Part shown: positions 3,732 to 26,641 of the stretch, in pieces
How positions within the stretch are numbered: the stretch's first letter is position 1
Layout: every line of letters begins with the position of its first letter
NCBI RefSeq assembly: GCF_000284315.1
Contig: NC_017094.1
Location: forward strand, 1,705,486-1,769,485
Reading direction: 5' to 3'
DNA length: 64,000 bases
From: Leptospirillum ferrooxidans C2-3
Lineage (GTDB): Bacteria; Nitrospirota; Leptospirillia; Leptospirillales; Leptospirillaceae
The notes under the pieces: model-generated
The model's input: only the letters and a program-made list of their open reading frames with translations
What the model was told of the DNA's origin: nothing
Databases searched by the model: none
Made by a program: the position numbers and the translations under genes

Positions 3732-4196
3732 CTAAACGGTACTGCCGATTTCTTTTATTAGAAGGAGTGCCGAAAAAAGGATCCCTAGAACCAATGCCCC
3801 TCCTATGATCAGAAAAGCTCTTTTTTTATCAAGCTCGTGCGCATGTTGAGAAACTTTTTCAAAGCGCCCCGAAATATTGGTCCTTCCTAAAAAAGCATCG
3901 ACAACACAAAAGGAAAGAAAACTCTGAAGAAAAGTAATTGCCGTGATAAAAGATAAAATCATCAGCCCTATGGTGAACAAAAGCGGGTGGTCAAGAACAG
4001 AAGGCCAACGCTCATTATAGACAATCACAGCAACAAACCCAAAGAACGCCACAAAACCTCGCAGCGCTCGGCCTTTTGCATTCAGATTCCTAATGCCGGG
4101 ACAGTAACGTTTCGAGTCGGGACCCAAATCATCCAAAGAAGTTGGTATTTCCGAATTCTCTGGATCGGATGGGTGATTTTTATCTGGTTCCATCAA
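3732..4196 (-). CDS. Small membrane protein of unknown function
   Basis: A protein of 154 residues that I do not recognise. It has a hydrophilic acidic N-terminus of about 45 residues, then three likely membrane segments at roughly 46-60, 70-92 and 126-147. A polar segment rich in K, E and H (QHAHELDKKRAF) precedes the last helix. Its start overlaps the lexA stop in an ATGA arrangement (4 bases), so translation is probably coupled to lexA. Its position between lexA and a SNF2 helicase could suggest a damage-linked role, but no motif supports this. The ORF is well filled and the overlap is typical of real genes, so its existence is fairly safe even though its function is not. Confidence 0.7.
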   Translation of the reverse strand: MMEPDKNHPSDPENSEIPTSLDDLGPDSKRYCPGIRNLNAKGRALRGFVAFFGFVAVIVYNERWPSVLDHPLLFTIGLMILSFITAITFLQSFLSFCVVDAFLGRTNISGRFEKVSQHAHELDKKRAFLIIGGALVLGILFSALLLIKEIGSTV

Positions 4197-4876
4197 TTTC
4201 GTCCTCCGTTTCGACTCAATGATCGGAAAATTCCAATCAAGCGTCCTTGGACAAGATCAGCCTCATCGTCCGGTAATATAATCCTATCAGGATAAGAGGG
4301 GTTGGCCGCCCGTAAAAGTAGTCTTCCATTATGGTGAAGATAGGTTTTTAAAGTCATCTCGCCTTGAATTTGGGCAACAATGATATCTCCATTAGAAACG
4401 TTGCCACCTTTTTTAATAAATGCAAGGTCTCCGTCGTAAATTCCTGCACCAATCATGCTATCGCCTATAACAGTTAATACAAAATCAGGTCTTTCGGAAA
4501 GAAAAGACGATGGAATGGTAATTTGACCATCGGATAGATGATCAGAACCTGTCGCAACGCCAGCTCTGACTCTGCCAACTCGAGGAACGGTAAGCCATTC
4601 GGAAGAAATGGTTTCATCCTGGAAACTAGAAGATTTTGCAGTTAGACGGATCCCTCTCGCTTTTCCGGGAATTCTTTGGATATAACCTTTTTTTTCGAGG
4701 GCTTCAAGATGGGTTCCCGCACTTTTAGGGTACGGGATGCCCAGATGATTAGCAATTTCTGTAATTGTGGGAGGTGATGAATTTGCCTGCATCCAAGAAA
4801 GGATAAAACGAAGCACTTCTTCTTGGCGTTCGGTTAAAGGTTTCACTTTTCTGGTGGTACCGCCATCCAATGACAT
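4193..4876 (-). CDS. lexA: LexA-type SOS repressor (S24 self-cleaving protease)
   Basis: A protein of 227 residues, close to usual LexA length. The N-terminal winged helix-turn-helix (about 12-78) begins with the typical LTERQEEVLRFI and includes SPPTITEIANHLG as the recognition region. The C-terminal S24 peptidase domain contains the Ala105-Gly106 cleavage site (VRAGVA), the nucleophile Ser140 in GDSMIGAGI and the general base Lys177 in EMTLKTY. All elements for RecA-stimulated self-cleavage are therefore present. The start ATG has AAGGGG five bases upstream, and only nine bases separate it from the nuoN stop. There is thus no room for an ordinary autoregulated lexA promoter except inside nuoN. 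The downstream membrane-protein gene overlaps its stop by four bases. Confidence 0.95.
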   Translation of the reverse strand: MSLDGGTTRKVKPLTERQEEVLRFILSWMQANSSPPTITEIANHLGIPYPKSAGTHLEALEKKGYIQRIPGKARGIRLTAKSSSFQDETISSEWLTVPRVGRVRAGVATGSDHLSDGQITIPSSFLSERPDFVLTVIGDSMIGAGIYDGDLAFIKKGGNVSNGDIIVAQIQGEMTLKTYLHHNGRLLLRAANPSYPDRIILPDDEADLVQGRLIGIFRSLSRNGGRN

Positions 4877-12460: not shown

Positions 12461-15106
12461 TTACTCAATTTTTTTCAAGGTTACCCTGGTCCGCAACATT
12501 GTTACCGTATGACAAGGGCCTGAGTAGTTCATTTCACCAGGGAACAGTGATAACAAATCAGGAGAAACAAAATGGTATGGTACCTGCAACTCATTTTCAG
12601 TCACACCTGAAGTCAGTTCGACCGGAATGGTACAAGTGCCATATTTGTTTTCAATAAGCACTAACTCATTCTTTTTGATCTTCAGTTTTTTGGCAGTCTG
12701 ACGATTGATTCGGAGAGAAGCTGCAGACTTCATTTTCATGAGGCTTGGATCAAGAAGAGTCATCTTTCCGGAATGAAAAAGAGACTTGTTAAGTGCCAAT
12801 ACAAATTCTCCCTCTCCTGAAATATTCTCAGGAAGAATTGGTGAATGGGCTGACGAAGCTTCTTTGTGATTGGAATGCATTTTTTGGGAAACAGTATTTC
12901 TGTCTGCCTTATGAGGAGGCTGAGGGGTCTGTGTGGGTAGGATCAGATTTCCCGTTGGGCCCATAAAATGTTCCCCATTGCGTGTCGAAGGAGAAAGATC
13001 AGGCATCAATGTGAAAATTTCTTTTGAAATTTCGCTGGTTGATCCATTCGATAATGGATGGCCCATACTCTCGGAAAGTCGAGAAACGATTTCACCATCA
13101 GACAGAGATTCGCCCCAATAAGTCATGGCAGGGCTAAGAGATTGGACGAACCCTTCAACACTAACAACATGTCCAGCTCGTTCGTATGAAGAAGCAGCCG
13201 GCAAAAGATAATGAGCTTGATCAGAGAGACTTGTCTGAAATAAATCTATTGAAACAATTAACTCCAGTTTCGCCAGAATTTCATGAACACCAGAATGAGG
13301 TGAAAAATGGGTTAAGGGATTTTCCCCGAAAGAAATGAGTCCCTTGATATTTCCTGCATTGATTCCCTCGAGAATCTCCTTTAAGCCGCCACCTTTCCCA
13401 TAAGACAGGTGATCGCCCCAGGTTGATTCCCATTTCTTCTTACATTCGGAGTCTTGTGAATCCAACAAGCCCGGAAGCCATTCATATGTCGCTCCCATCA
13501 TAAGAACACCTAGATCGTTCCCAACTTCTGGCAGAGGAAGAATTCCACAACCTTCTTTCTCGACCCAACCCAAAGATTGAACCATCCGGAGCAAATTCTC
13601 CATCGCTGCATAGGCAGACTGAATTCGATGGAATACTCTCCCAGTGATAATGATTCCTGTCTGAGCTTCTCTCAGATCCTGAACTAAGCGGGTATAAGCC
13701 TGAGGATCAACATTAAATGACTTGAAGAGCTCTTCTTTTCTGGAAAGAAAATCAGGATGCCTATGTGCCTCTTGAGAAGAAATCTCCTCAGACAAAATCC
13801 AAGCAAATAAGCCTTCGCCACCAGGCAACACTCGAATGTGGTCTTTGGCTCTAGATGTTATCGAAACAGACTCGGAGCCCACATAATACATTCGAGATTT
13901 TTCTTTCCTAACAGCTCTCTTTAGAAACAGTCCAGTAATATTTGACTCTGAAGTCGGGTCAGCTCCGATCACGAGAATGACTTTTGCTTTCAATAGATCC
14001 TGATGATCAACCATTGGCCTCAATGTACCAGTTGCTTTTCCGATGGGATAAGCAGCATTCATGAATCCATAGCGAGCACCCGAATCAATATAATTGGATC
14101 GCAAAACTCGGCGGGAGAACCCTTGGATCAAGTAGGCATCTTCCATGGGGATTCTTGGGGAAACCAGGGTGGCGATTCGATCTGGTCCTACCCTAACAAT
14201 AGAGCTTAGTTTTTCAGCCAGTTCTGGAATGACTGAATCCCATTCAGTGGGTACCAAACGAGAGAAAGACCTTGCATAAGGTTTGTCTAGTCGTTCGGTA
14301 GACTGCACATGAGAAAAACCGAATCGTCCAATTGCACAGAGAGAGCCCTCATTCGGCCCCTCTCCTTCGGAAGAAGTGACTCTGATGATGGCTTCTTTCT
14401 CGGTTTCTACATTCATCTGGCAACCTGATGCGCAATAAGTACAGGTTGTCTTTGTTTTCTCGAGCTGCCATGGACGATATTGATACCGGACAAACTTATC
14501 GGTAATGGCTCCTGTTGGACACACTTCCAAGCAATCCCCGCAAAATTCGCAATCCAGCTTTTTGCCGAGAGGAGGACCTATAACTGTGTCAAATCCACGA
14601 TTGATGAATCCAATGGCATGTACATCCTGAACCTCATCACAAATCCTTACGCATTTTCCACAGAGGATACAGCGATTCGAGTTAAAAACAAGCACATCAC
14701 TTTTAATATCTTCCACTTCATCATTTCGATGCGATTCGAAACGAGAATCACTCGCTCCGTAAGAAAATGACATATTTTGAAGCGGGCATTCTCCTCCGCA
14801 GTCACAAACAGGGCAATCCAGCGGATGATGGAGCAACAGTAGCTCAAGATTTGTTTTTCTGGCATCAGCAACCTTCGCTGACTCGGTCAGAATGCGCATC
14901 CCATCAGAAACGGGCGTCACACAGGACATGACAACCCGCTTGGAATCCTCTAGTTCCACTGCGCAAATTCGGCACGAACCGGCAGGATCCATCCTCGGAT
15001 GGTAACAAAAAGTGGGAATGGAAATACCCGCTTTTTCCGCAGCCTTCAATATTGTTGAGGTTGCATCAACCTCAACCTCAACCCCATTTACAAATACTTT
15101 AACCAT
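12461..15106 (-). CDS. nuoG: NADH-quinone oxidoreductase subunit G (iron-sulfur, molybdopterin-fold)
   Basis: A protein of about 881 residues from the ATG at 15106, which has GGGGGAG upstream. The N-terminal [2Fe-2S] ferredoxin domain has Cys34, Cys45, Cys48 and Cys62. The His-Cys3 cluster (His94, Cys98, Cys101, Cys107) follows, then two [4Fe-4S] motifs at Cys146-149-152-156 and Cys186-189-192-196. A further TCTYCASGCQM motif with a later Cys in GSLC is the site for the off-path N7 cluster, which many complex I enzymes lack. The remainder is a degenerate molybdopterin-oxidoreductase fold with a C-terminal dinucleotide-binding-like beta barrel. An upstream in-frame ATG at 15220 would overlap nuoF and is unlikely. 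Confidence 0.95.
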   Translation of the reverse strand: MVKVFVNGVEVEVDATSTILKAAEKAGISIPTFCYHPRMDPAGSCRICAVELEDSKRVVMSCVTPVSDGMRILTESAKVADARKTNLELLLLHHPLDCPVCDCGGECPLQNMSFSYGASDSRFESHRNDEVEDIKSDVLVFNSNRCILCGKCVRICDEVQDVHAIGFINRGFDTVIGPPLGKKLDCEFCGDCLEVCPTGAITDKFVRYQYRPWQLEKTKTTCTYCASGCQMNVETEKEAIIRVTSSEGEGPNEGSLCAIGRFGFSHVQSTERLDKPYARSFSRLVPTEWDSVIPELAEKLSSIVRVGPDRIATLVSPRIPMEDAYLIQGFSRRVLRSNYIDSGARYGFMNAAYPIGKATGTLRPMVDHQDLLKAKVILVIGADPTSESNITGLFLKRAVRKEKSRMYYVGSESVSITSRAKDHIRVLPGGEGLFAWILSEEISSQEAHRHPDFLSRKEELFKSFNVDPQAYTRLVQDLREAQTGIIITGRVFHRIQSAYAAMENLLRMVQSLGWVEKEGCGILPLPEVGNDLGVLMMGATYEWLPGLLDSQDSECKKKWESTWGDHLSYGKGGGLKEILEGINAGNIKGLISFGENPLTHFSPHSGVHEILAKLELIVSIDLFQTSLSDQAHYLLPAASSYERAGHVVSVEGFVQSLSPAMTYWGESLSDGEIVSRLSESMGHPLSNGSTSEISKEIFTLMPDLSPSTRNGEHFMGPTGNLILPTQTPQPPHKADRNTVSQKMHSNHKEASSAHSPILPENISGEGEFVLALNKSLFHSGKMTLLDPSLMKMKSAASLRINRQTAKKLKIKKNELVLIENKYGTCTIPVELTSGVTENELQVPYHFVSPDLLSLFPGEMNYSGPCHTVTMLRTRVTLKKIE

Positions 15107-15137
15107 CACTGAGAACTCCCCCGGAAGGCTTTTCGCC

Positions 15138-16991
15138 CTAAATAATAGCCCTGAATTTGCAGGCATCAACACAAGCCTTGCAGCGAATGCATGTAGTGAG
15201 ATCGATATGAGCAACCTCACCTTTTTCCCATGTCACCGATCCGGATGGACACACTGGTTCACAAAGTCCACAGGTCGTACAATCTTCTTCAATGACCACA
15301 TATTTGATGAGATCATTGCATACTGTTCCGGGGCAACGCTTATCTCGAATATGCGCCTCGTACTCGTCACGGAAATATCTGATGGTCGAAAGAACCGGAT
15401 TAGGCGCAGCTCCTCCAAGTCCACATAGGGAATTGGACTTGATATACATGGAAAGGCGAACAAGTTCATCAAGATCCCCTTCCTGGCCTTTTCCCTCAGT
15501 AATTCTGGTCAGGATGTCGAGCATGATCTTTGAACCAACCCTGCAGGGAGTACATTCACCACATGATTCATCCTGAGTGAACTTTAGGAAGAATTTGGCT
15601 GTATCCACGATACAGGCCGCTTCGTCCATAATCACAATTCCGCCCGATCCCATAATGGCACCAGCAGAAACAACATTTTCAAAATCAACAGGAGTGTCAA
15701 GGCCACTTGTGGGAATACAACCACCTGAAGGCCCTCCTAACTGGGCCGCCTTGAACGGAATTTTCTTTTCAACCATTCCGCCACCAATGGAGAAAACAAT
15801 TTCTCTCAGCGGGGTTCCTGCAGGAACTTCGATCAAACCGGTGTTTTTAATTGAACCGGTCAGAGCAAAAGTCTTCGTCCCCTTGGTCTTCTCACTACCG
15901 TATGAGGCATACCAATCGCCACCGCCAAGAATAATATGGCCAATATTTGCCAATGTCTCAACATTATTGATAACGGAAGGCTTCCCCCAAACTCCTTTTT
16001 GGGCTGGAAATGGAGGTTTTGGCCAAGGCATTCCACGCTCTCCCATTAAAGAGGCTAAGAGAGCCGTTTCCTCACCACAAACATAAGCGCCCGCTCCCTC
16101 CTTGATTTCGAGGTCAAAAGACAAATCTGATCCCAGAATATTTTCCCCAAGAAAGTTTCTTTCTCTGGCATCATTGATCGCTTTCTGCAAACGCTTGATC
16201 GCAAGCGGATATTCAGCGCGACAATATATATATCCTTTTTTGGCATGTCCAACGGCAAAGGAAGCAAGGATCATACCTTCTATCACGGAATGAGGGTCAC
16301 CCTCCAGAACGGAGCGATCCATAAAAGCACCAGGATCACCTTCATCAGCATTACAAACTACGTATTTTTCTGGACCGGGAGATTTACGCGTCAGGTTCCA
16401 CTTCATTCCTGTAGGGAAACCGCCGCCGCCCCGCCCACGCAATCCTGACTTCGTAACCTCATCAATAACCTGTTCCGGGGTCATTGATGAAAGGACTTTC
16501 TTCAAGGCCTTGTACCCATCCATTGCGATATAATCGTCAATGCTCAACGGATCGATCATTCCGCATCGTTTCGAAACGATCTTGACCTGCCCCTTGAAAA
16601 AAGGAATTTCCTGCATCATGGGAAGACCAGCAAAAGCTTCTGCCCCAGGTATGGAAATCTGGCAAACAGCATATTTTTTTGCAAACTCATTTTTGTTGAA
16701 ATGTGCATCAAGAATTTGAGTCAGGGTATTTGGCTTGACATTACGATAAGAGACCCTGTTTTTACCTGGCATTGTAATGTCAACCAGCGGCTCATTGTGG
16801 CACATACCAATACACCCGGTGGGCACAACCTTCACTGCCAAATTTCTGGAAGCTACCTCTTTGAGAATTAATTCATGTAAAGCCTTCGCCCCTGATGCCA
16901 AGCCACATGTAGCCATTCCTATATGAATGACTGGCAGGGAAGACTGCTCTTCTAAATGTAGAGAAGAATCTTCAAGCACCTCGGTTAACAT
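15138..16991 (-). CDS. nuoF: NuoF-type NADH-binding flavoprotein with extra N- and C-terminal iron-sulfur domains
   Basis: A protein of 617 residues, far longer than the usual NuoF of about 430-450. Residues about 20-100 form a thioredoxin-like ferredoxin module (MATCGLASGA, then PTGCIGMCHNEP). The central part is canonical: GLRGRGGGGFPTGMKW binds FMN and NADH, CNADEGDPGAFMDR follows, and ESCGECTPCRVG with a later SLCGLG binds [4Fe-4S] N3. The C-terminus adds a two-cluster ferredoxin (CTTCGLCEPVCP and CIRCKACVDACK). This layout is that of HydB/HndC-like flavoproteins of NAD(P)-linked and electron-bifurcating hydrogenases, yet it sits in a full complex I operon between nuoE and nuoG. A tight hairpin precedes its ribosome site. 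Confidence 0.93.
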   Translation of the reverse strand: MLTEVLEDSSLHLEEQSSLPVIHIGMATCGLASGAKALHELILKEVASRNLAVKVVPTGCIGMCHNEPLVDITMPGKNRVSYRNVKPNTLTQILDAHFNKNEFAKKYAVCQISIPGAEAFAGLPMMQEIPFFKGQVKIVSKRCGMIDPLSIDDYIAMDGYKALKKVLSSMTPEQVIDEVTKSGLRGRGGGGFPTGMKWNLTRKSPGPEKYVVCNADEGDPGAFMDRSVLEGDPHSVIEGMILASFAVGHAKKGYIYCRAEYPLAIKRLQKAINDARERNFLGENILGSDLSFDLEIKEGAGAYVCGEETALLASLMGERGMPWPKPPFPAQKGVWGKPSVINNVETLANIGHIILGGGDWYASYGSEKTKGTKTFALTGSIKNTGLIEVPAGTPLREIVFSIGGGMVEKKIPFKAAQLGGPSGGCIPTSGLDTPVDFENVVSAGAIMGSGGIVIMDEAACIVDTAKFFLKFTQDESCGECTPCRVGSKIMLDILTRITEGKGQEGDLDELVRLSMYIKSNSLCGLGGAAPNPVLSTIRYFRDEYEAHIRDKRCPGTVCNDLIKYVVIEEDCTTCGLCEPVCPSGSVTWEKGEVAHIDLTTCIRCKACVDACKFRAII

Positions 16992-17008
16992 GACATCCTA
17001 CCCTCTCT

Positions 17009-17025
17009 CCCTGAAACATTCAGGG
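17009..17025 (-). repeat. Perfect inverted repeat just upstream of the nuoF ribosome site
   Basis: The arms CCCTGAA and TTCAGGG (7 bp, 3-base loop) form a tight hairpin in the nuoE-nuoF intergenic RNA. It ends directly beside the purine-rich GGGAGAGAGGG stretch that precedes the nuoF start at 16991. It has no following T-run, so it is not an intrinsic terminator. It could affect translation or mark an RNA processing point, but this is inference. Confidence 0.5.
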
Positions 17026-17122
17026 TCCAGATTTAAAATATATTTTTTGAATCTTCGGTTGACATTCTCTCTTTGAGCACAAATTCCATATTATCGACTC
17101 AAGGAAAAAAAGAATCTCCTTG

Positions 17123-17629
17123 TTAAGCCGATTCTGACGCAGACAAATGCTCTGACTCAAGATCCTTAATCAAGCCAAGCATTTTATCTGGAGAAAGTTT
17201 TCCATACGCGGTATCCGTTACCATGGCCATAGGCGCCAAAGCACAAGACCCCAAACAGGAAACTGGTTCCAAGGTAAAAAGCATATCTTCGGTGTTCTCT
17301 CCTGGCTCAATCTTTAACTCTTCCTTGACTTTATCAACCAGAAGCCCTGCACCTCTTACATGACAGGCCGTCCCTACACATATCTTGAGAACGTATTTGC
17401 CTCTTGGCTCCCGATAAAACTGGGAGTAAAAAGTCAATACGCCATACATCTTGCTTTTGGGAATCTCAAGATACTCACCTATCATATCCAGCGCATCAGC
17501 TGGAACATATCCATATTTTTCCTGGATTCTTTGTAAGATTTGAACGACGGTCCCTTCCCTGTTTCCGAATTCGTCGCACAAATTCTCAATAAAATCCTGA
17601 TCAACTTCTATATGTTTTGTCTGGCTCAT
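17123..17629 (-). CDS. nuoE: NADH-quinone oxidoreductase subunit E ([2Fe-2S], thioredoxin-like)
   Basis: A protein of about 168 residues. The N-terminal helical bundle contains GTVVQILQRIQEKYGYVP. It is followed by the thioredoxin-like domain, whose four ligands appear in CVGTACHVRGA (two Cys five apart) and CLGSCALAPM (two Cys four apart). These hold the N1a cluster. The frame is open 18 codons further upstream, but the ATG at 17629 has GAGGG seven bases upstream and begins just before the conserved helices. It lies about 140 bases after nuoD and about 130 before nuoF, the two loosest gaps in the operon core. Confidence 0.94.
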   Translation of the reverse strand: MSQTKHIEVDQDFIENLCDEFGNREGTVVQILQRIQEKYGYVPADALDMIGEYLEIPKSKMYGVLTFYSQFYREPRGKYVLKICVGTACHVRGAGLLVDKVKEELKIEPGENTEDMLFTLEPVSCLGSCALAPMAMVTDTAYGKLSPDKMLGLIKDLESEHLSASESA

Positions 17630-17771
17630 GTTCGAACCCTCAACTATGGGAATGCTCTCTCCCGAATTCATTTTCCGGAACAAAACCTTTCCGGGCTTGT
17701 CAGGAATATAACAACATTATTATCAGAGAACCTGATAACCTCGGACCCTGACGATCCGATTTCGGCAAAAT

Positions 17772-19055
17772 CTAACGGTCACATTCACCCATCACAATAT
17801 CAAGAGTACCAAATATCGTAACAATATCCGCCACCATATACCCCTTGGCCATATGATCCAGTGCGCCAATATGGATAAAGGAAGGCGCTCGGATTTTCAT
17901 CCGATAGGGCTTACCAGAACCATCACTGACAATATAAAATCCTAATTCGCCTTTAGGTGTTTCAGTACCGCAATAGGTATCCCCCGGAGGAACCTTGAAA
18001 CCTTGTACAACCAAGAGAAAATGATGGATCAAGGTTTCCATGTTATGCATCACCTTCCCTTTGTCCGGGAAAGTGATTTTATGATCATCTGTCAGAATCC
18101 TGCCGGGCGGTAACTTATCCAGACATTGCCGGATGATTTTCGAACTTTCCCGCATTTCTTCAATTCTGATCCAGTAACGATCGTAAACATCCCCATTTGT
18201 TCCAACAGGGACATTCCACTCCACTTGATCATACACCCCATAGGGCTCGTATTTTCTCAAGTCATAATCCACCCCAGAGCCACGTAGGCTCGGACCGGAT
18301 ACACCAAAATTGATTGCATCCTCACCTGTAATAACAGCAATGTTTTTAGTGCGGGCAAGCCAAATCCTGTTCGTTTCAAGAAGAATATTATATTCTTTAA
18401 TATTCCCCTCAAAAGCATCCAAAAACTTATAAAGTCGTGTAATAAATTCTTTGGGAAGATCTGCATCGACTCCTCCGACCCTATAGTAGTTGGATGTAAG
18501 CCTTGCGCCACAAATCATTTCAAACAAGTCAAGAAGCTCTTCTCTCTCCCTGAACGTATAAAAGAAAACGCTCATCGCACCAATATCCAATGCCTGAGTA
18601 CCAAGCCAAAAGAGATGGTTCACAATTCTCTGGACTTCTGCCACTATAGTCCGGATATATTCAGCTCTTTCCGGGACCTTGATTTCGAGCAATTTCTCCA
18701 CTGCTCGGACGAACGCATAATTATTCGCCATAGCAGAAACATAGTCGAGGCGATCAGTCATCGGAATAATTTGGTTATAAGTGCGATACTCTGCGATCTT
18801 CTCGGTTCCCCGGTGCAAATATCCTAGATCGGGAATGGAACGTTTGATTCTTTCTCCGTCAAGATCCAGGAGAACACGAAGAACACCGTGCGTACTTGGA
18901 TGCTGGGGACCCATATTCAAAAGAAATTGATCTGTCTGAATGGATGAGTCCAGATCATTCAAAACCGTCTGGCGCAGAGACGACAAAACCACTTCTCTCC
19001 GCCTGGTTTCTTCGATACGATCAGCTACCTTATCTACTACCTTTTCCTGCTCCAA
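17772..19055 (-). CDS. nuoD: NADH-quinone oxidoreductase subunit D (49-kDa-type)
   Basis: A 427-residue protein with the NuoD signature LLNMGPQHPSTHGVLR near residue 45 and the C-terminal IHIGALDHMAKGYMVADIVTIFGTLDIVMGECDR region (here about residues 394-427). It forms the quinone pocket with NuoB and is related to the [NiFe]-hydrogenase large subunit but lacks the metal-binding cysteines. The start is TTG at 19055, supported by GGGGAG nine bases upstream. nuoC and nuoD are separate genes here, unlike the fused form in enterobacteria. Confidence 0.96.
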   Translation of the reverse strand: MEQEKVVDKVADRIEETRRREVVLSSLRQTVLNDLDSSIQTDQFLLNMGPQHPSTHGVLRVLLDLDGERIKRSIPDLGYLHRGTEKIAEYRTYNQIIPMTDRLDYVSAMANNYAFVRAVEKLLEIKVPERAEYIRTIVAEVQRIVNHLFWLGTQALDIGAMSVFFYTFREREELLDLFEMICGARLTSNYYRVGGVDADLPKEFITRLYKFLDAFEGNIKEYNILLETNRIWLARTKNIAVITGEDAINFGVSGPSLRGSGVDYDLRKYEPYGVYDQVEWNVPVGTNGDVYDRYWIRIEEMRESSKIIRQCLDKLPPGRILTDDHKITFPDKGKVMHNMETLIHHFLLVVQGFKVPPGDTYCGTETPKGELGFYIVSDGSGKPYRMKIRAPSFIHIGALDHMAKGYMVADIVTIFGTLDIVMGECDR

Positions 19056-19145
19056 GGGCCGATACTCCCCTATCCATATTTGTTAAAACCAGACACGGAA
19101 ATCTCCAGAAAACCCCCTGGATCCGATCCATATCATCAATTCAAC

Positions 19146-19679
19146 TTATTCCTTAGCGGTAATTTTTTTATGATCCACTGTGATACGCTGCATTTTAGGA
19201 ACAAAAGACATATCTTCTCGCCAACCTTTGCCGATCAAGGGAAAATCTTTCCTGAGCGGATATCCTTCATCATAGTCATCCGGCATCAAGATCCGCCTAA
19301 GATCGGGATGACCTCGGAACTGAATGCCCATCATGTCGTAGACTTCCCGCTCCATAAATTCGGCACCTTTCCATATTCCCACAATCGAGTCAACAACGGG
19401 AGAAGTTTCAGATACCCTTTGTTTTACCATGATCCGATGTTTTCTCGACATAGAATACAGAATGACAACAACCTCGAATCTCTCCGATTCCTTGGGGTAG
19501 TCGACAGAAACCACATCCACTATATAGTCATAATCGTATCGGGGATCATCATGGAGAGATTGAAATACCGAAAGCGCACCATCCGGTTTCAGATATACAG
19601 TCAGATCTCCCAAGGCCTCACGGGAGCCCAGAAAAACATCAGGCCACTCCCTAGAAATGCTTTCAGCGACTAGATGCAT
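19146..19679 (-). CDS. nuoC: NADH-quinone oxidoreductase subunit C (30-kDa-type)
   Basis: A 177-residue peripheral-arm subunit. The C-terminal signature FMEREVYDMMGIQFRGHPDL, followed by RRILMPDDYDEGYPLRKDFP, is typical of the 30-kDa subunit. It packs against NuoD, which follows 90 bases later. The ATG at 19679 has AAAGGG upstream and lies three bases after the nuoB stop. Confidence 0.96.
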   Translation of the reverse strand: MHLVAESISREWPDVFLGSREALGDLTVYLKPDGALSVFQSLHDDPRYDYDYIVDVVSVDYPKESERFEVVVILYSMSRKHRIMVKQRVSETSPVVDSIVGIWKGAEFMEREVYDMMGIQFRGHPDLRRILMPDDYDEGYPLRKDFPLIGKGWREDMSFVPKMQRITVDHKKITAKE

Positions 19680-19682
19680 CTC

Positions 19683-20216
19683 TTAAACCCTTTCCGACCT
19701 GGTGGCACCAACAGGAAAGTTTCCAGGAAATACAGGACGATCTTTCATGATCTTTTCCTGAAGTTTGAAAAGTCCATCAAGGAGCGCTTCAGGCCTGGGC
19801 GGACAACCCGGAACATACACATCAACAGGAATTAACCTATCAACGCCCTGTACAACACTATAGCTGTCATAGATATTTCCGGAAGTAGCGCAAGACCCCA
19901 TGGCGATCACATACCTGGGCTCCGGCATCTGATCATAGATTCTTCGAACAACAGGCGCCATTTTTCTGGTTAATGTACCTGCTACGATCATCAGATCCGA
20001 TTGTCTCGGGGAGGCTCTGAAAACCCCTGCACCAAAACGGTCTATATCAAATCGGGAAGCCACAACGCCGATCATCTCGATAGCGCAGCATGCCAAGCCA
20101 AAGGTCATTGGCCAAATTGCTGACTTTCTTGACCAGTTAATGACCTCATTGACTGCATCCTGCAAACGCATCGTAACGACTGATAGCTCTCCATCCTTCT
20201 CATGATTCATTCCCAT
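19683..20216 (-). CDS. nuoB: NADH-quinone oxidoreductase subunit B (N2 cluster)
   Basis: A protein of about 177 residues. The N2 [4Fe-4S] ligands are visible as the tandem cysteines in GLACCAIEM, the Cys in [14 protein letters not shown], and the Cys in [15 protein letters not shown]2 passes electrons to quinone. The gene overlaps the end of nuoA. Two starts compete: ATG at 20216, seven bases after AGGAG, and ATG at 20210, which would make an ATGA overlap with the nuoA stop. I prefer 20216 on spacing. Confidence 0.95.
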
Positions 20217-20578
20217 TCCAAAGCTCCTTTGCGCCATGCATAGACATATCCGACCAACAATACAAAAATAAAGATCATCATTTCGACCAACCCGAACAAT
20301 CCGAGTCGATTAAAGTCTACTGCCCACGGATATAGGAAAACGACTTCCACATCAAAGACGAGAAACAACATAGCAATCACATAATACCTTACGGAAATTC
20401 GCTCCCGAGCATCATTGATTGGGGGGACACCACACTCATAAGGAGAATCTTTTTCCTTATAAGGATTTTTGGGTCTGATTAATCGCCCTACAGTGATGGA
20501 GACAGCTCCAAAACCGATAGCAACTAGTAGGAAGAGCAAGATAGGGATATAGTGCTCCGGATTTGAAACAGAAAACAT
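20207..20578 (-). CDS. nuoA: NADH-quinone oxidoreductase subunit A
   Basis: A 123-residue membrane protein with three helices. The loop after the first helix contains [10 protein letters not shown], the conserved Cys-containing loop near the quinone site, and the second helix contains [15 protein letters not shown]. It is the first gene of the nuo operon. The start has GGAG eight bases upstream, and a promoter lies about 80-105 bases further up. Confidence 0.96.
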
Positions 20579-20654
20579 CCGAATTCTCCAATAGCTTCTT
20601 TAAGGAGTGAGTAGTGCCACGAACAAGGCACCGGTTTTAGGGAAAAGGTTCTTC

Positions 20655-20684
20655 ATTGTATTGACCAAGACCGAGTCTTGTCAA
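20655..20684 (-). promoter_or_regulatory. Sigma-70-like promoter of the nuo operon
   Basis: On the minus strand the sequence reads TTGACA, an 18-base spacer, then TACAAT, a near-consensus housekeeping promoter. The predicted start of transcription near 20648 would leave a leader of about 70 bases before nuoA. That leader contains a small GTGCC/GGCAC hairpin. The whole spacer is part of a dyad (separate entry), which would put a bound regulator between the two promoter boxes. Confidence 0.6.
20661..20684. promoter_or_regulatory. Operator-like dyad inside the nuo promoter
   Basis: Arms CAAGAC and GTCTTG (20666-20671 and 20675-20680) flank a CGA centre. They are extended outward by TTGA and TCAA with one unpaired base, giving 10-bp near-perfect symmetry over 24 bases. 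It covers the -35 box and the entire spacer. Size and position fit a dimeric repressor or a MerR-type activator that acts on long (18-19 base) spacers. The regulator is unknown. Confidence 0.5.
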
Positions 20685-20729
20685 TATTAGACGGACCGAT
20701 TCGGCGAACATTACGATTGAACGATGGGA

Positions 20730-20762
20730 TGGTACAAATCAGGTATAGGTTGATTTGTACCA
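20730..20762. repeat. Perfect 12-bp inverted repeat between secA and nuoA
   Basis: TGGTACAAATCA and TGATTTGTACCA flank a nine-base loop, with no mismatch. There is no T-run on either side, so it is not a classical intrinsic terminator. Overlapping shorter repeats share the region: TGGGATGG (20725-20732) can pair with CCATCCCA (20785-20792), and ATCAGGTAT (20738-20746) with ATACCTGAT (20831-20839). Alternative pairings are thus possible. It lies downstream of secA and upstream of the nuo promoter. Confidence 0.6.
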
Positions 20763-20856
20763 CACATTGGATCCGAGAGATACCCCATCCCAACTTTTGC
20801 AGAATAAATTTTTTCGTTTATTCATTATTCATACCTGATCGAAAAAAGATCTCCGA

Positions 20857-23592
20857 TCACTGTCCATGGCATTTCTTGTACTTTTTTCCACTCCCACACG
20901 GACATAAATCGTTTCGTCCTATTTTGGGATCTCTTAATTCTGCATCTGACGGAGAAGCCATTGGAGCTCCCCAAGGGAGAAATCCCTCCTCCATTTGCGG
21001 AGGCATACCGAATGAAACGGTATCGGAAGATGATGCAACTGGGTAACCTGCTTGAGACTCATCCAATGGGTGGATGTATTGCAAGTTATCAAGTTCAGGA
21101 TATTCCGGAAGACTTGCATCCTCTTCCATCCGGCTGGCACTACCAACAAGTAGAATCACCGACTCTTCCACATTTGCGATAAAGCTCTCAAAGAGATCAA
21201 AACCTTCCCGCCTATATTCCACAAGAGGGTCTTTCTGCCCATATCCTCTCAATCCGATACCTTCTTTGAGATGATCCATGTTCAAAAGATGCTCTTTCCA
21301 AAGCGAGTCGAGGTTTTGGAGGACAAAGTAGCGAACAATCGACCAAAAGGCTTCACTTCCAAACAGGGATTCCTTTTCTTTTAAAAAGTCTTGGTGCTTC
21401 TCCAGAAGTTCATTCCTGAGAGCATCAATCCCCAAATCCCTAATAGATTCCGGATTGATAGTCATCCCTGTTTTTTCCTGAACCCCTTCACATAACCCTG
21501 GCAAATCCCATGTTTCCGGGTATTGGTCCTCCGGGGCAAAGATCATAAGCAGTTTATCGATAATGGTTTCAGCCCACTCGTATAACCTCTCTGAAAGATC
21601 TTCTCCTTTCAAGGTTTTTTTGCGCATCTCATAAAAAATCAGTCTTTGCTGATTCATAACATCATCATATTCAATAAGCTGTTTGCGTATATCGAAATGG
21701 TAGTTCTCTACCTTTTTCTGTGCATTCTCAATGGCTTTGCTCACAAAACCATGCTCAATAGGAACACCATCTTCGACGCCCATCCGCTCCATAAGGCCTT
21801 TGATGCGCTCTGCTCCAAAAATTCTGAGAAGGTCATCCTCAAGAGACAAATAGAATCGAGAAGAGCCTGGATCTCCTTGCCTCCCGGACCGTCCTCTCAA
21901 CTGATTGTCAATACGTCGACTCTCGTGGCGCTCAGTCCCAATAATATGAAGCCCACCAGCAGCCATCACAGCTTCTTTTTCAGAGTGAAGATCTTTATCA
22001 AGCGCTTCATGAAGTGCATTCATCTCGTCTTCCGACAATGACTTACCAGCTTTTTCAAGATCTGAAACACGGGCTTTGAGCAAAAACTCCGAATTCCCTC
22101 CCAATAAAATATCAGTCCCTCGACCCGCCATGTTGGTTGCAATCGTTACCATCCCAAGACGGCCTGCCTGAGCAACAATCTCAGCTTCCAGCTCGTGAAA
22201 TTTAGCATTCAGAACATTATGGGGAATATTGGCTTCCCTTAGAAGTGAAGCGAGATGCTCGGATTTCTCAATGGATACCGTTCCTACAAGAATAGGTTGT
22301 CCTGTTTTATGTCTGGCTAAGATATCTTCAACAATCGCATTATTTTTTTCACGGTTAGTGCGATAAATCTGGTCGGGAAGATCGTGTCGGATCATCTTTC
22401 TGTTGGTTGGAACAACAACGACATCAAGTCCATAGATCTTATGAAACTCAGTTGCTTCGGTATCCGCAGTCCCTGTCATACCGGAAAGTTTTCCGTACAT
22501 ACGGAAAAAATTCTGGAAGGTGACCGTTGCCAACGTCTGATTCTCCATCTGGATAGCCACTTTTTCTTTTGCTTCCACAGCCTGATGGAGGCCCTCACCC
22601 CAACGGCGTCCCGGCATAAGCCGGCCGGTGAACTCATCAACGATGATCACTTCTCCATTTTTCACCACGTACTCGACATCCCGACGATAGACATGGTGGG
22701 CTTTCAGAGCCTGAAGGACGTGATGGAACCAGGATATATTATTGACATCGTAAAGGTTATGGATACCGAGCAACTCCTCAACGGCATTATTCCCTTCATC
22801 TGTCAGAGTTGCAGATTTCAGTTTCTCATCCACCTTGAAATGGAGGTCTTTTTTCAAGTGCTTCATGATCCGGTCAACCTTCACATACATATCGGTTGAC
22901 TCTTCAGCCTGTCCAGAAATAATAAGAGGTGTGCGAGCCTCATCAATCAAAATACTGTCCACTTCATCCACGATAGCGAAATGGAGCCCCCGTTGAACAA
23001 ACTCAGAAAGGTCATACTTCATATTGTCACGCAGGTAATCGAATCCAAACTCATTGTTGGTTCCGTAAGTAACATCTGCAGCATAAGCGGCTTTGCGATC
23101 AACATCTTCAATATCATGCTGGACAATTCCCGTCGTAAGACCCAGAAAATGATAAAGATGCCCCATCCATTCCGAATCTCTTCTTGCTAAATAATCATTA
23201 ACCGTAATAACGTGAACGCCCTTCCCCTCCAATGCATTGAGATAGACCGGCAGGGTCGCAACCAGCGTTTTACCTTCCCCCGTTTTCATCTCTGCGATTT
23301 TACCTTCGTGAAGGACAATGCCGCCGATCAGTTGGGAATCAAAGTGTCGCATCCCAAACACTCTTTTTCCGGACTCCCGAACAACGGCAAAAGCCTCTGG
23401 AAGTAAATCATCCGTTGTTTCACCCGCTGCAATCCGCTTTTTGAATAACTCACTTTGGCCCCTAAGTTCATCATCTGACATTCGCGAGATTTGGGGTTCA
23501 AGAGCATTGATGGAATCAACAATACGGTATATTCGCTTCAATTCTCTTTGGTTTCGAGTCGGAAAAATAGACGACAGCAAATCTTTAAACAT
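20857..23592 (-). CDS. secA: Preprotein translocase ATPase SecA
   Basis: A protein of about 911 residues with full SecA architecture. Early helicase motifs include [14 protein letters not shown] (Walker A) and [16 protein letters not shown] (Walker B and following). The second nucleotide-binding domain contains [13 protein letters not shown] and [14 protein letters not shown]. The C-terminal tail ends in [14 protein letters not shown], the zinc-binding motif that contacts SecB and the ribosome. SecA drives unfolded proteins through SecYEG. The start is best placed at the third of three consecutive start-like codons (23592), five bases after GGAG. It is the last gene of the long run beginning at rny. 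Confidence 0.97.
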
Positions 23593-23622
23593 CATCACTC
23601 CTAAGATAGATGGTCTTCCCAA

Positions 23623-24519
23623 TCATTCAGTCAGAACTTCACTTGCCAAAAATGCTATAGGGTCGATAGGTTTCCCAAATTTTCTGAGCTCAAAGTGGAG
23701 ATGAGGACCATTTGTCATCCCCGAAAGACCAACAGTACCGATGATATTCCCGCGGTGGACCATCTCACCTTCACGAACGTCCACTTTTCCAAGGTGAGCA
23801 TAAATCGATGTCAGCCCCATCCCATGAAATAACATGACATATCGGCCATAGTCTGACGCAAATCCGGTCTGGAGAACAAAACCATCAGAGGGGGCCATAA
23901 CCACAGTCCCGACTTTCTGCGCAATATCGATTCCCGGATGAAACTCTTCTCCTGTTCCCATCTGGCTTTTTCTTTTTCCAAAAGGAGAAGTGATCCAACC
24001 CTTGAGAGGCATTTGCCATTGCCCCTGAATTTCAAAATGGCTCCATCTGATTTTCTTTCCTAAAACGACCGGAACACCTCCAGACCTTTTCAGATTGGAG
24101 GGAGTCCCCCCATTGGATGAATCCCTAAAGTTCGGTGAAACATTTTGATCCACTTTCCCAGAAGCTTCCCCCTGTGAATTCAAAGAAGGATTTCCAGTGT
24201 TCGAGCCTTCCGTCATTTTTGATATTTGGCCATCAAGAAGATTGACCTGTGATAGTTCAGCCTCAAGTTGTTCCAGCTTCTTCCGATAATCCTCAAGATG
24301 CATTTTTTGTGTTTGGGTCTCAAGAATCAAGTTATGATAAAAAACAAATTTTTTGGCTTCTACGACATAAAAGAAAATCATTGTGCCGATTCCGAACAAA
24401 AACAGGACAAAACCGACAATCACAAGATGAAACATCCAACGAGGAAGAGTCCATTGAATGGACTTTTCCGTTGCCCCCGGAAGGATTGTGATAGTAACGG
24501 TTCTTGGCATTTTTGCCAT
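23623..24519 (-). CDS. Membrane-anchored M23 (LytM-type) peptidase
   Basis: A protein of 298 residues with a short basic N-terminus, one membrane helix at about 30-52 and a coiled coil at about 60-98. A linker rich in S, G and N follows, then an M23 domain. The zinc and catalytic residues appear in HPGIDIA (His194, Asp198), AHLG (His242) and HLHFEL (His273, His275), so it should be an active endopeptidase rather than a degenerate LytM factor. The layout (TM, coiled coil, M23) matches periplasmic peptidoglycan hydrolases of the NlpD/MepM type. Its start overlaps the cutA stop by one base (TAATG). Confidence 0.92.
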   Translation of the reverse strand: MAKMPRTVTITILPGATEKSIQWTLPRWMFHLVIVGFVLFLFGIGTMIFFYVVEAKKFVFYHNLILETQTQKMHLEDYRKKLEQLEAELSQVNLLDGQISKMTEGSNTGNPSLNSQGEASGKVDQNVSPNFRDSSNGGTPSNLKRSGGVPVVLGKKIRWSHFEIQGQWQMPLKGWITSPFGKRKSQMGTGEEFHPGIDIAQKVGTVVMAPSDGFVLQTGFASDYGRYVMLFHGMGLTSIYAHLGKVDVREGEMVHRGNIIGTVGLSGMTNGPHLHFELRKFGKPIDPIAFLASEVLTE

Positions 24520-24869
24520 TAGGTTTCACCTGGTGGAGTATCTTTTGGATGAAGTGGGGAAATAGATTCCAAAATCCAGGAGAGGTAGGAAGAAGATCCT
24601 CCATCAATCGCCTGGAAAATGATTTCAGGAACCTCATACGGATGACTTTTCTTGACCTGCTCAATCAGCAGATCTGAACAATCGGATGTTGTCTTTAAAA
24701 GGATCATCACTTCTATCCCCCTGACAACATCCCCTTCCCATCGATAGATAGAAAGACCTGGCTCAAAGACATGACCACAGGCGACAAGCCCTTTCTCAAC
24801 AAGGGATTCGACAAGGTTGCAGGCTTCATTCCTGTCCGGGTGAGAGATCCATACAGACATGAAACTCAT
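24519..24869 (-). CDS. cutA: CutA1-family divalent-cation tolerance protein
   Basis: A 116-residue protein with the CutA pattern: a first strand, ACNLVESLVEKGLVACGHVFEPGLSIYRWEG split over residues 16-46, EVMILLKTTSDCSDLLIEQVKKSHPYEVPEII in the middle, and a final segment carrying the SYLSWI tryptophan. CutA forms ferredoxin-like trimers; metal binding is reported, but its physiological role is unclear. The start overlaps the preceding epimerase gene by four bases (ATGA). A second in-frame ATG three codons later is an alternative. Confidence 0.9.
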   Translation of the reverse strand: MSFMSVWISHPDRNEACNLVESLVEKGLVACGHVFEPGLSIYRWEGDVVRGIEVMILLKTTSDCSDLLIEQVKKSHPYEVPEIIFQAIDGGSSSYLSWILESISPLHPKDTPPGET

Positions 24870-25801
24870 TTTGAATGACTCATAAAGTACTCCAGAGTCT
24901 TCTTTAGTCCTTCCAAGAGACTCACCTCAGCCATCCAGTCCCATTCCGAATCCGGCCTGTTTGTGGAAAGCACTCTTGCACGACCGACCGGAGCCGTTCC
25001 GCCTTCATACTCTAAGGGAACATCTCTACCGGAGAGAAGTCTCAGTTGTGTAAAAACCTCTCTCTCAGTTCCAGCCTCATATCCGGAAATATGGACAACT
25101 CCTCTAACCTTTTCGGTCAGAATGGATGTGATGGCTCTCACCGCATCATCAATGTAAAGGTAATCTCTATATTTCAAGCCATTGTTCTTGAGTCGCATTG
25201 ACCAGTACGGATATCCGTCCAAAATGAACCTGGAAGCCCTGGCAATAAATCCTCCCTCCGCAGATTGGCGCATTCCTGGACCATAAACCGGGGGAAGTCT
25301 CACAATCGAAAAAGGAACTCCTTGCGCACCCAGACGATACTGAAGATATCGTTCAGCCAAAAGATGTGCTGAACCGTAAGGATTTTCAGGATTGGCCGGG
25401 GTCGACTCATCTTTCGGCTCCTGACTACCTCCGGAGAGGACCTCTCCTGTGCTGACAAAGACAACAGCTTCAATCGGAAGATCACTCAAAGACTCTGTCA
25501 GACGAAGAATAGGGAGAATCGTTCTTTCCAAATCTTTTTCAGGTTGTTCCGCAGACACATCCGGATCAGACTGACCTGCAACATGAATATATACGAAAGG
25601 TAATTTAGGATCGACATAGCGCTTGAGAAGCTTGGGTTGTGAGAGGTCTGCCTTTTCAAAGGCCAATCGTTTCTGTGCCAGCAGAGGAGAAACACCACTT
25701 TTGAGGTCATCGATCGCAAGAACCTCCATTCCCAAGGACGCCAATTCTCTTGACAGTGCCCCACCAATAAACCCCGCACCACCTCCGACGATTAGTTTCA
25801 A
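24866..25801 (-). CDS. NAD-dependent epimerase/dehydratase-like SDR protein with altered catalytic motif
   Basis: A 311-residue extended short-chain dehydrogenase. The N-terminal Rossmann motif is GGGAGFIGG, followed by an acidic residue in AIDDLKSG that suits NAD. The VFVSTGEV strand supplies the usual catalytic Ser. The expected Y-x3-K site reads NPYGSAHLLAE, so His replaces the lysine. Relatives in sugar-nucleotide metabolism need that lysine, so this enzyme may have changed chemistry or may only bind substrate. The start is a TTG with AAAGG upstream. It follows tlyA by 42 bases and overlaps cutA. No sugar-nucleotide genes are nearby to suggest a substrate. Confidence 0.8.
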   Translation of the reverse strand: MKLIVGGGAGFIGGALSRELASLGMEVLAIDDLKSGVSPLLAQKRLAFEKADLSQPKLLKRYVDPKLPFVYIHVAGQSDPDVSAEQPEKDLERTILPILRLTESLSDLPIEAVVFVSTGEVLSGGSQEPKDESTPANPENPYGSAHLLAERYLQYRLGAQGVPFSIVRLPPVYGPGMRQSAEGGFIARASRFILDGYPYWSMRLKNNGLKYRDYLYIDDAVRAITSILTEKVRGVVHISGYEAGTEREVFTQLRLLSGRDVPLEYEGGTAPVGRARVLSTNRPDSEWDWMAEVSLLEGLKKTLEYFMSHSK

Positions 25802-25843
25802 GTCTAAAAACGCCTTTCATTTGAAATGGAATAGACCGTTCCC

Positions 25844-26641
25844 TTATTGGGGAGGCTTTCTCGAAAGGAAGAGGAGATATTCCTGATTACCTTTTCTCCC
25901 CTGGATAAGGGACGGGAAACACCCCTTGACCTGCCATCCTGATTCCTCGGCAAAAAGAAAGAAGCTGGCAATCAAACTCCGTTGCAAAATCGGGTCCCGA
26001 ACCACCCCTCCGGGACCGACAAACCGGGAAGCCGCTTCAAACTGAGGCTTGAAAAGCGGGAGAAAAATGCCTCCGCTTCGCAACAGGTATTCAACGGTCG
26101 GAAGAATTTTCCGAAGAGAAATGAATGAAAGATCAGCAACAACTCCATCCACTGGCCATGAAGGAACCCAAGAGCCAAGATGGCGCACATTCACACCATC
26201 AATGCTGGAAACTCTGTTATCTGAAAGGAGTGACGATGCCAGTTGTCCACGGCCAACATCTACTGCCAGAACTCGACTCGCACCTTTTCTGATCAAACAA
26301 TCCGTAAAGCCACCAGTTGATGCCCCAAGATCAACATACGAACGCCCTTCAGGAGAAATCCCAAAAAAATTCAGGGCACCCTGAAGTTTCTCCCCGCCCC
26401 TCCCAACAAAAGGAGCAGGAAGTGATTTTTCAGGCAATAAAGAAAGATCATCAAATCTGGCTTGATCGGATGGTTTTTTTTTAACAACCCCTTTAACGCT
26501 GACCCTGCCACTTTCAATCAGGATCAAAGCGCTCTCCCTGGAATCTGCCCATCCCTTCTTGAGAACAAGGGAGTCCAGCCGTTTAATGTCTCCCAATGAT
26601 ACCTCTACCTTTTGGGAAATCAATTTCCTCCGGAAATCCAT
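25844..26641 (-). CDS. tlyA: TlyA-family rRNA 2'-O-methyltransferase
   Basis: A protein of about 265 residues. The N-terminal S4 RNA-binding domain (RLDSLVLKKGWADSRESALI) is followed by a FtsJ-type Rossmann methyltransferase domain with the SAM motif YVDLGASTGGFTDCL. The family methylates 16S and 23S rRNA cytidines and is often annotated as hemolysin A. The overlap with the dxs stop (22 bases) reproduces the widely conserved xseB-ispA-dxs-tlyA order. The ATG at 26641 has only a weak ribosome site; an in-frame TTG slightly downstream is possible. Confidence 0.92.
   Translation of the reverse strand: MDFRRKLISQKVEVSLGDIKRLDSLVLKKGWADSRESALILIESGRVSVKGVVKKKPSDQARFDDLSLLPEKSLPAPFVGRGGEKLQGALNFFGISPEGRSYVDLGASTGGFTDCLIRKGASRVLAVDVGRGQLASSLLSDNRVSSIDGVNVRHLGSWVPSWPVDGVVADLSFISLRKILPTVEYLLRSGGIFLPLFKPQFEAASRFVGPGGVVRDPILQRSLIASFFLFAEESGWQVKGCFPSLIQGRKGNQEYLLFLSRKPPQ

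Follow-up and report, generated by a model that had tools for sequence, protein, structure and literature searches.

The DNA analysed is a stretch of 64,000 nucleotides (the window) from a genome that forms a single contig of 2,559,538 bases. It carries the complex I operon, nuoA–N, on the minus strand, with secA as the upstream neighbour of nuoA and lexA behind nuoN (Table 1). NCBIfam names cover nuoA, secA, nuoN and lexA, and the remaining nuo genes were named by reading open frames. The best NCBIfam models for nuoA all score under their cut-offs, yet every one of them names subunit A, and nuoA was matched in 56 of 61 genomes searched. The gap between nuoN and lexA is only about 10 bases, and lexA is possibly the far end of the nuo transcript. 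In all six genomes of three genera, termed g1 (the window's genus), g2 and g5, lexA shares the strand of nuoA and lies 15–16 kb downstream of it. The sister genus g3 has lexA-like genes elsewhere in the genome, and the g4 contig is too short to tell.

Table 1. Features of the nuo locus in the window
Feature	Position	Strand	Remarks
lexA, directly after nuoN	4193..4876	-	TIGR00498, 168.2 bits vs cut-off 110.95
nuoA, first gene of complex I operon	20207..20578	-	top NuoA model in NCBIfam has E 1.1e-42, under its curated cut-off
76-base stretch, -10 box to nuoA start (includes untranslated leader)	20579..20654	-	10/76 columns vary among 3 congeners
-10 box TACAAT	20655..20660	-	TACAAT, TAGAAT or TAAAAT in 17/17 testable loci
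Full quasi-palindrome, 12 pairs, loop 3, one unpaired base	20659..20686	.	3/17 testable family loci
18-base spacer, holds most of dyad	20661..20678	-	17 bases in 14 testable loci outside genus
Inner ungapped palindrome CAAGAC-N3-GTCTTG	20666..20680	.	part of the dyad
-35 box TTGACA, nuo promoter	20679..20684	-	TTGAC invariant in 13 aligned family loci; TTGACA or TTGACT in 17/17 testable
secA, upstream neighbour, same strand as nuoA	20857..23622	-	NCBIfam 1236.5 bits vs cut-off 814

The promoter of the complex I operon

The nuoA–N operon has a housekeeping promoter of the sigma-70 type. Its -35 box TTGACA and -10 box TACAAT are separated by the spacer AGACTCGGTCTTGGTCAA, and a preliminary description of this DNA had given the coordinates and letters of both hexamers and the 18-base gap correctly. 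Sigma-70 promoters have TTGACA at -35 and a TATAAT-like -10 sequence 16–18 bases apart, and the nuo hexamers, with a spacer of 18, show this arrangement. They score 11 of 12 against the consensus, the best of five promoter matches within positions 19500–22000; shuffled versions of this segment have a mean of 4.1 promoter matches of any kind. The transcript would start about 7 bases past TACAAT. A literature search, with most subscription papers outside its coverage, found neither a transcription start map for Leptospirillum nor an account of the control of the complex I operon or the nuo promoter in Leptospirillum-type bacteria.

The promoter is inherited by the whole family. The family sample consists of 21 genomes, 18 of which have nuoA (no nuoA match in G011, G018 and G020), and 17 loci are testable, L006 being excluded because its contig ends 72 bases before nuoA. 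With nuoA starts picked by script, all 17 loci display TTGAC[A/T]-17/18-TA[C/G/A]AAT at 64, 76 or 79 bases before nuoA (76 in the window), and in an alignment of 13 of them the TTGAC and TA-AATG columns are invariant. The same promoter is found at the g3 loci L009, L015 and L016, where the upstream DNA is different by inspection and has no SecA C-terminal motif; at L004 and L005 the motif was missed by the script, though the upstream DNA reads like the end of secA. This near-fixed distance from nuoA, kept even where the upstream DNA differs, gives good support to the earlier assignment of the hexamers to complex I. The promoter, now exactly defined and conserved across five genera, is therefore ancestral to the family. 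As a separate observation, the nuoA leader in g3 (L007–L017) has a five-pair CUCCG/CGGAG hairpin over the likely ribosome-binding site, with pairs that vary on one side only and none that vary on both.

A symmetric site over the polymerase contacts

The nuo promoter also contains a symmetric element, TATTGACAAGAC-TCG-GTCTTGGTCAATA, which has a right arm of GTCTTG(G)TCAATA and forms 12 Watson-Crick pairs with one unpaired base. When Watson-Crick arms were sought, allowing loops of up to 8 bases and no more than one bulge or mismatch, it came out as the best dyad of the secA–nuoA intergenic region. The near-palindrome with 10-bp arms that had been described before is present, but its extent was taken too small, the 10 pairs being nested in the 12-pair dyad. 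The inner palindrome begins within the -35 box, at its fifth base; the full dyad includes two bases 5′ of that box and, at its other end, the first two of the -10 hexamer. Read without the gap, the outer palindrome over the same span is TATTGAC-N14-GTCAATA, and the centres of the inner and outer palindromes are half a base pair apart. Between secA and the promoter, at 20730–20762, a further inverted repeat has perfect 12-base arms around a 9-base loop and lacks a T-run; the two congeners have not kept it.

Symmetry of this extent over the polymerase contacts is beyond chance. Twelve pairs were reached three times when the 50-base promoter was shuffled 4000 times, twice in 4000 shuffles restricted to the spacer, and once when the 278-base intergenic region was shuffled 400 times. 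Four dyads of at least 12 pairs are found in the 64-kb window, as against 0–2 in each of 20 whole-window shuffles. The true surprise is less than 2 in 4000 suggests, because the site was picked out of a whole window.

The dyad is found only in the three genomes of the window's genus among the 17 testable family loci, each time with an 18-base spacer. The other 14 promoters all have 17-base spacers, and their best dyads have 0–6 pairs. The preliminary description had counted a lack of conservation in sister species against its reading, and the outcome is divided: the dyad is kept in all three congeners, but at the family level it is absent, as none of the 14 sister-genus promoters has it. Both the dyad and the 18-base spacer are derived features of a single genus and are younger than the promoter.

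Further genomic copies of the 24-base dyad, for which a search had also been suggested, did not turn up. With the loop left free and up to three mismatches allowed, the 24-mer occurs as one copy each in 3 of the 21 family genomes, and no additional copy is present in G000, G001 or G002. In the GTDB contig collection, from which the window's own genome is possibly absent, a pattern with the loop and one base free matched two records only, the nuo loci of the two congeners. The dyad pattern had no match in viral contigs, nor did the 282-base region in plasmids. The inner core with at most one mismatch is not enriched (7, 7 and 7 per strand in G000, G001 and G002 versus 11, 7 and 14 for the reversed pattern). 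Outer half-sites with at most two mismatches number 8, 4 and 5 in the same genomes versus 3, 1 and 4 for reversed controls, a mild excess provisionally put down to promoter-like composition. A global regulon and a shared or mobile element were rejected on these grounds: the 24-mer is single-copy, the inner core is unenriched, and plasmids and viral contigs gave no match.

Four of six inner-core near-matches in G000 were inspected, and three lie inside long open frames. The fourth (L046; the same in G002, L047) looks non-coding, is unlike the nuo promoter, and is located in a stretch that is near-identical between both genomes. Over positions 1300–1720 of L046 and L047, G000 and G002 are almost identical, outside genes too, as against about 78% identity in the nuo region; this perhaps reflects recent transfer.

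Conservation and competing readings

Among the three congeners, the -35 and -10 boxes are invariant, the spacer varies at one of 18 sites, which is in the 3-base loop, and all paired dyad positions are identical. Constraint thus acts on the core promoter and leader, whose columns vary little compared with those of the upstream DNA (108 of 169 aligned columns variable) and the fourfold sites of nuoA (33 of 52). In aligned intergenic DNA at 12461–26641, no more than one column varies over 30 bases in just two places, 20578–20610 and 20654–20688. Across the colinear region, however, 1025 of 22398 18-column stretches, mostly coding, are equally conserved. Nuo spacers of g3, which have no such dyad, serve as a control: in 10 of 55 pairs, 33–50 of 123 third positions differ, as in the three g1 pairs, and of the 17 spacer bases in these 10 pairs none has changed in five pairs, two in three pairs and eight in two pairs. 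A repressor operator should be conserved beyond a dyad-less promoter, but conservation fails to single out the dyad, because dyad-less spacers are as conserved in 5 of the 10 comparable pairs. Constraint on the spacer is therefore a general trait of the nuo promoter, symmetric or not, and no proof of the dyad. A sample of three species is, besides, too small for paired changes in the arms to show up.

The reading tentatively put forward here is that of a sigma-70 promoter that carries a candidate repressor operator peculiar to the genus. An operator role for the dyad, as the preliminary description had envisaged, is possible but unproven. The site is symmetric, rare by chance and placed over the polymerase contacts; on the other side, it is confined to one genus, is single-copy, and is conserved no better than spacers without a dyad. 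The half-base-pair shift in register between the inner and outer palindromes also speaks against an operator, since a single rigid dimer would not fit it easily. Beside the promoter, where the neighbours are secA and nuoA, no regulator gene is seen. The site has no further copies at other genes such as would make up a regulon, though a regulator with a single target does not strictly need them.

Nearly as likely as an operator is a plain constitutive promoter in which the palindrome is incidental. A template-switch (quasi-palindrome) mutation, for example, could have created it and at the same time added the base that took the spacer from 17 to 18, and slow evolution of the whole core promoter and leader could be the only reason why it was kept. 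The derived state of dyad and spacer in one genus, the 14 outgroup promoters with 17 bases and no such dyad, the single copy of the 24-mer, the equally conserved dyad-less spacers and the many equally conserved stretches of the colinear region all agree with this. Against it are the rarity of 12 pairs by chance and the arm positions that are unchanged in three species although the loop changed. The remaining readings are much less probable. That polymerase also starts on the plus strand, from TTGACC-16-AATATT, is unlikely. Divergent initiation at symmetric promoters has been put forward in the literature, which counts for a two-way promoter here, and the plus-strand pair is present in all three congeners, with 9 of 12 consensus positions in the window. 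However, there is no convincing plus-strand gene downstream, only a 122-aa open frame spanning non-coding DNA and the tail of secA, and the sequence beyond the dyad is not conserved. MerR-type activation, in which a regulator on the spacer dyad twists the DNA and so aligns the -35 and -10 boxes, had been suggested by the way the dyad fills the spacer, and is very unlikely. MerR promoters have spacers of 19–20 bases (PMC9909328), not 18, and the arms of the nuo dyad extend into both hexamers. Such help is unneeded, because both hexamers are near consensus, and no regulator gene is seen adjoining the promoter, between secA and nuoA. MerR-type activation was rejected on spacer length and on the strength of the hexamers.

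At the RNA level, the dyad might act as a hairpin in read-through transcripts from secA, with a role in processing or decay. This is highly improbable, although the fold of the intergenic RNA beats those of 199 out of 200 shuffled sequences (z -2.93). The predicted minimum-energy fold self-pairs the dyad only in part, no T-run follows it, the three species have no compensatory change, and the promoter persists at loci where secA is not upstream; the best Rfam match (E 0.61, 22.7 bits versus a gathering score of 134) is taken as chance. Control by LexA was tested because lexA follows nuoN, an order found in all six genomes of g1, g2 and g5 that would place the nuo promoter under LexA feedback if the dyad were a LexA operator. 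This is scarcely credible. The dyad core is absent, within two mismatches, from six recA and lexA loci of g1 (about 3.7 kb), for which reason LexA feedback was ruled out; g2 and g5 have the same nuo–lexA linkage without the dyad in 2 of 2 testable loci, and a different motif, GGTG-N10-(C/A)ACC, is found upstream of recA and lexA-like genes.

The GGTG-N10-(C/A)ACC motif deserves separate mention. It precedes recA in g1 (L059–L061), and the near-palindrome GGTGAACAAATGATCACC or close variants are located upstream of lexA-like genes in g3 and of one in g2 (L083, L085, L086, L092, L098 and L101), in a survey with script-picked starts, some of them doubtful for recA, that covered 15 of 17 recA loci. 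It may possibly be the LexA box of the Leptospirillum family. The motif is a lead only, because in g1 it can also be read as an extended -10 promoter (TGTAAAAT).

A candidate switch and its relation to known systems

If the dyad is functional, occlusion by a dimer is the preferred mechanism, because the dyad overlies the -35 box and reaches the edge of the -10 box. In the window's genus the spacer has acquired one base and turned into a near-perfect palindrome over the -35 box that touches the -10 box. A homodimeric repressor might then grip the two mirror half-sites, whose starts are 21 bases, or about two helical turns, apart, and the bound dimer would keep RNA polymerase off both hexamers. 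Complex I would thereby have a switch of its own, with no other target.

It is an established idea that iron oxidisers make NADH by driving electrons uphill through complex I. If the dyad is an operator, the control of a core respiratory operon has changed recently. In its widest form, the proposal is that iron-oxidising acidophiles of one genus acquired, over their complex I promoter, a repressor site dedicated to this one target, such that the whole nuo operon with its terminal lexA is switched as a unit, by a device younger than the promoter and outside the known respiratory regulons; this is rather doubtful. The dyad itself is a small, defined element, rare by chance and genus-specific, and is a candidate switch only.

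Several known systems share properties with the nuo site. Symmetric bidirectional promoters also have a mirror -35-like sequence on the other strand, but the nuo site has no convincing gene or conserved sequence on its other side. MerR-family activated promoters have a dyad in the spacer, where most of the nuo dyad also lies; the nuo promoter differs in its 18-base spacer, compared with 19–20 bases in MerR promoters, in its strong hexamers and in arms that run into both of them. Steric-repression operators that lie over the -35 box and spacer of sigma-70 promoters differ from the nuo dyad in that the latter is a candidate site from sequence alone, with a single genomic copy and in one genus. 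They resemble it in having near-consensus hexamers and a palindrome placed over the polymerase contacts.
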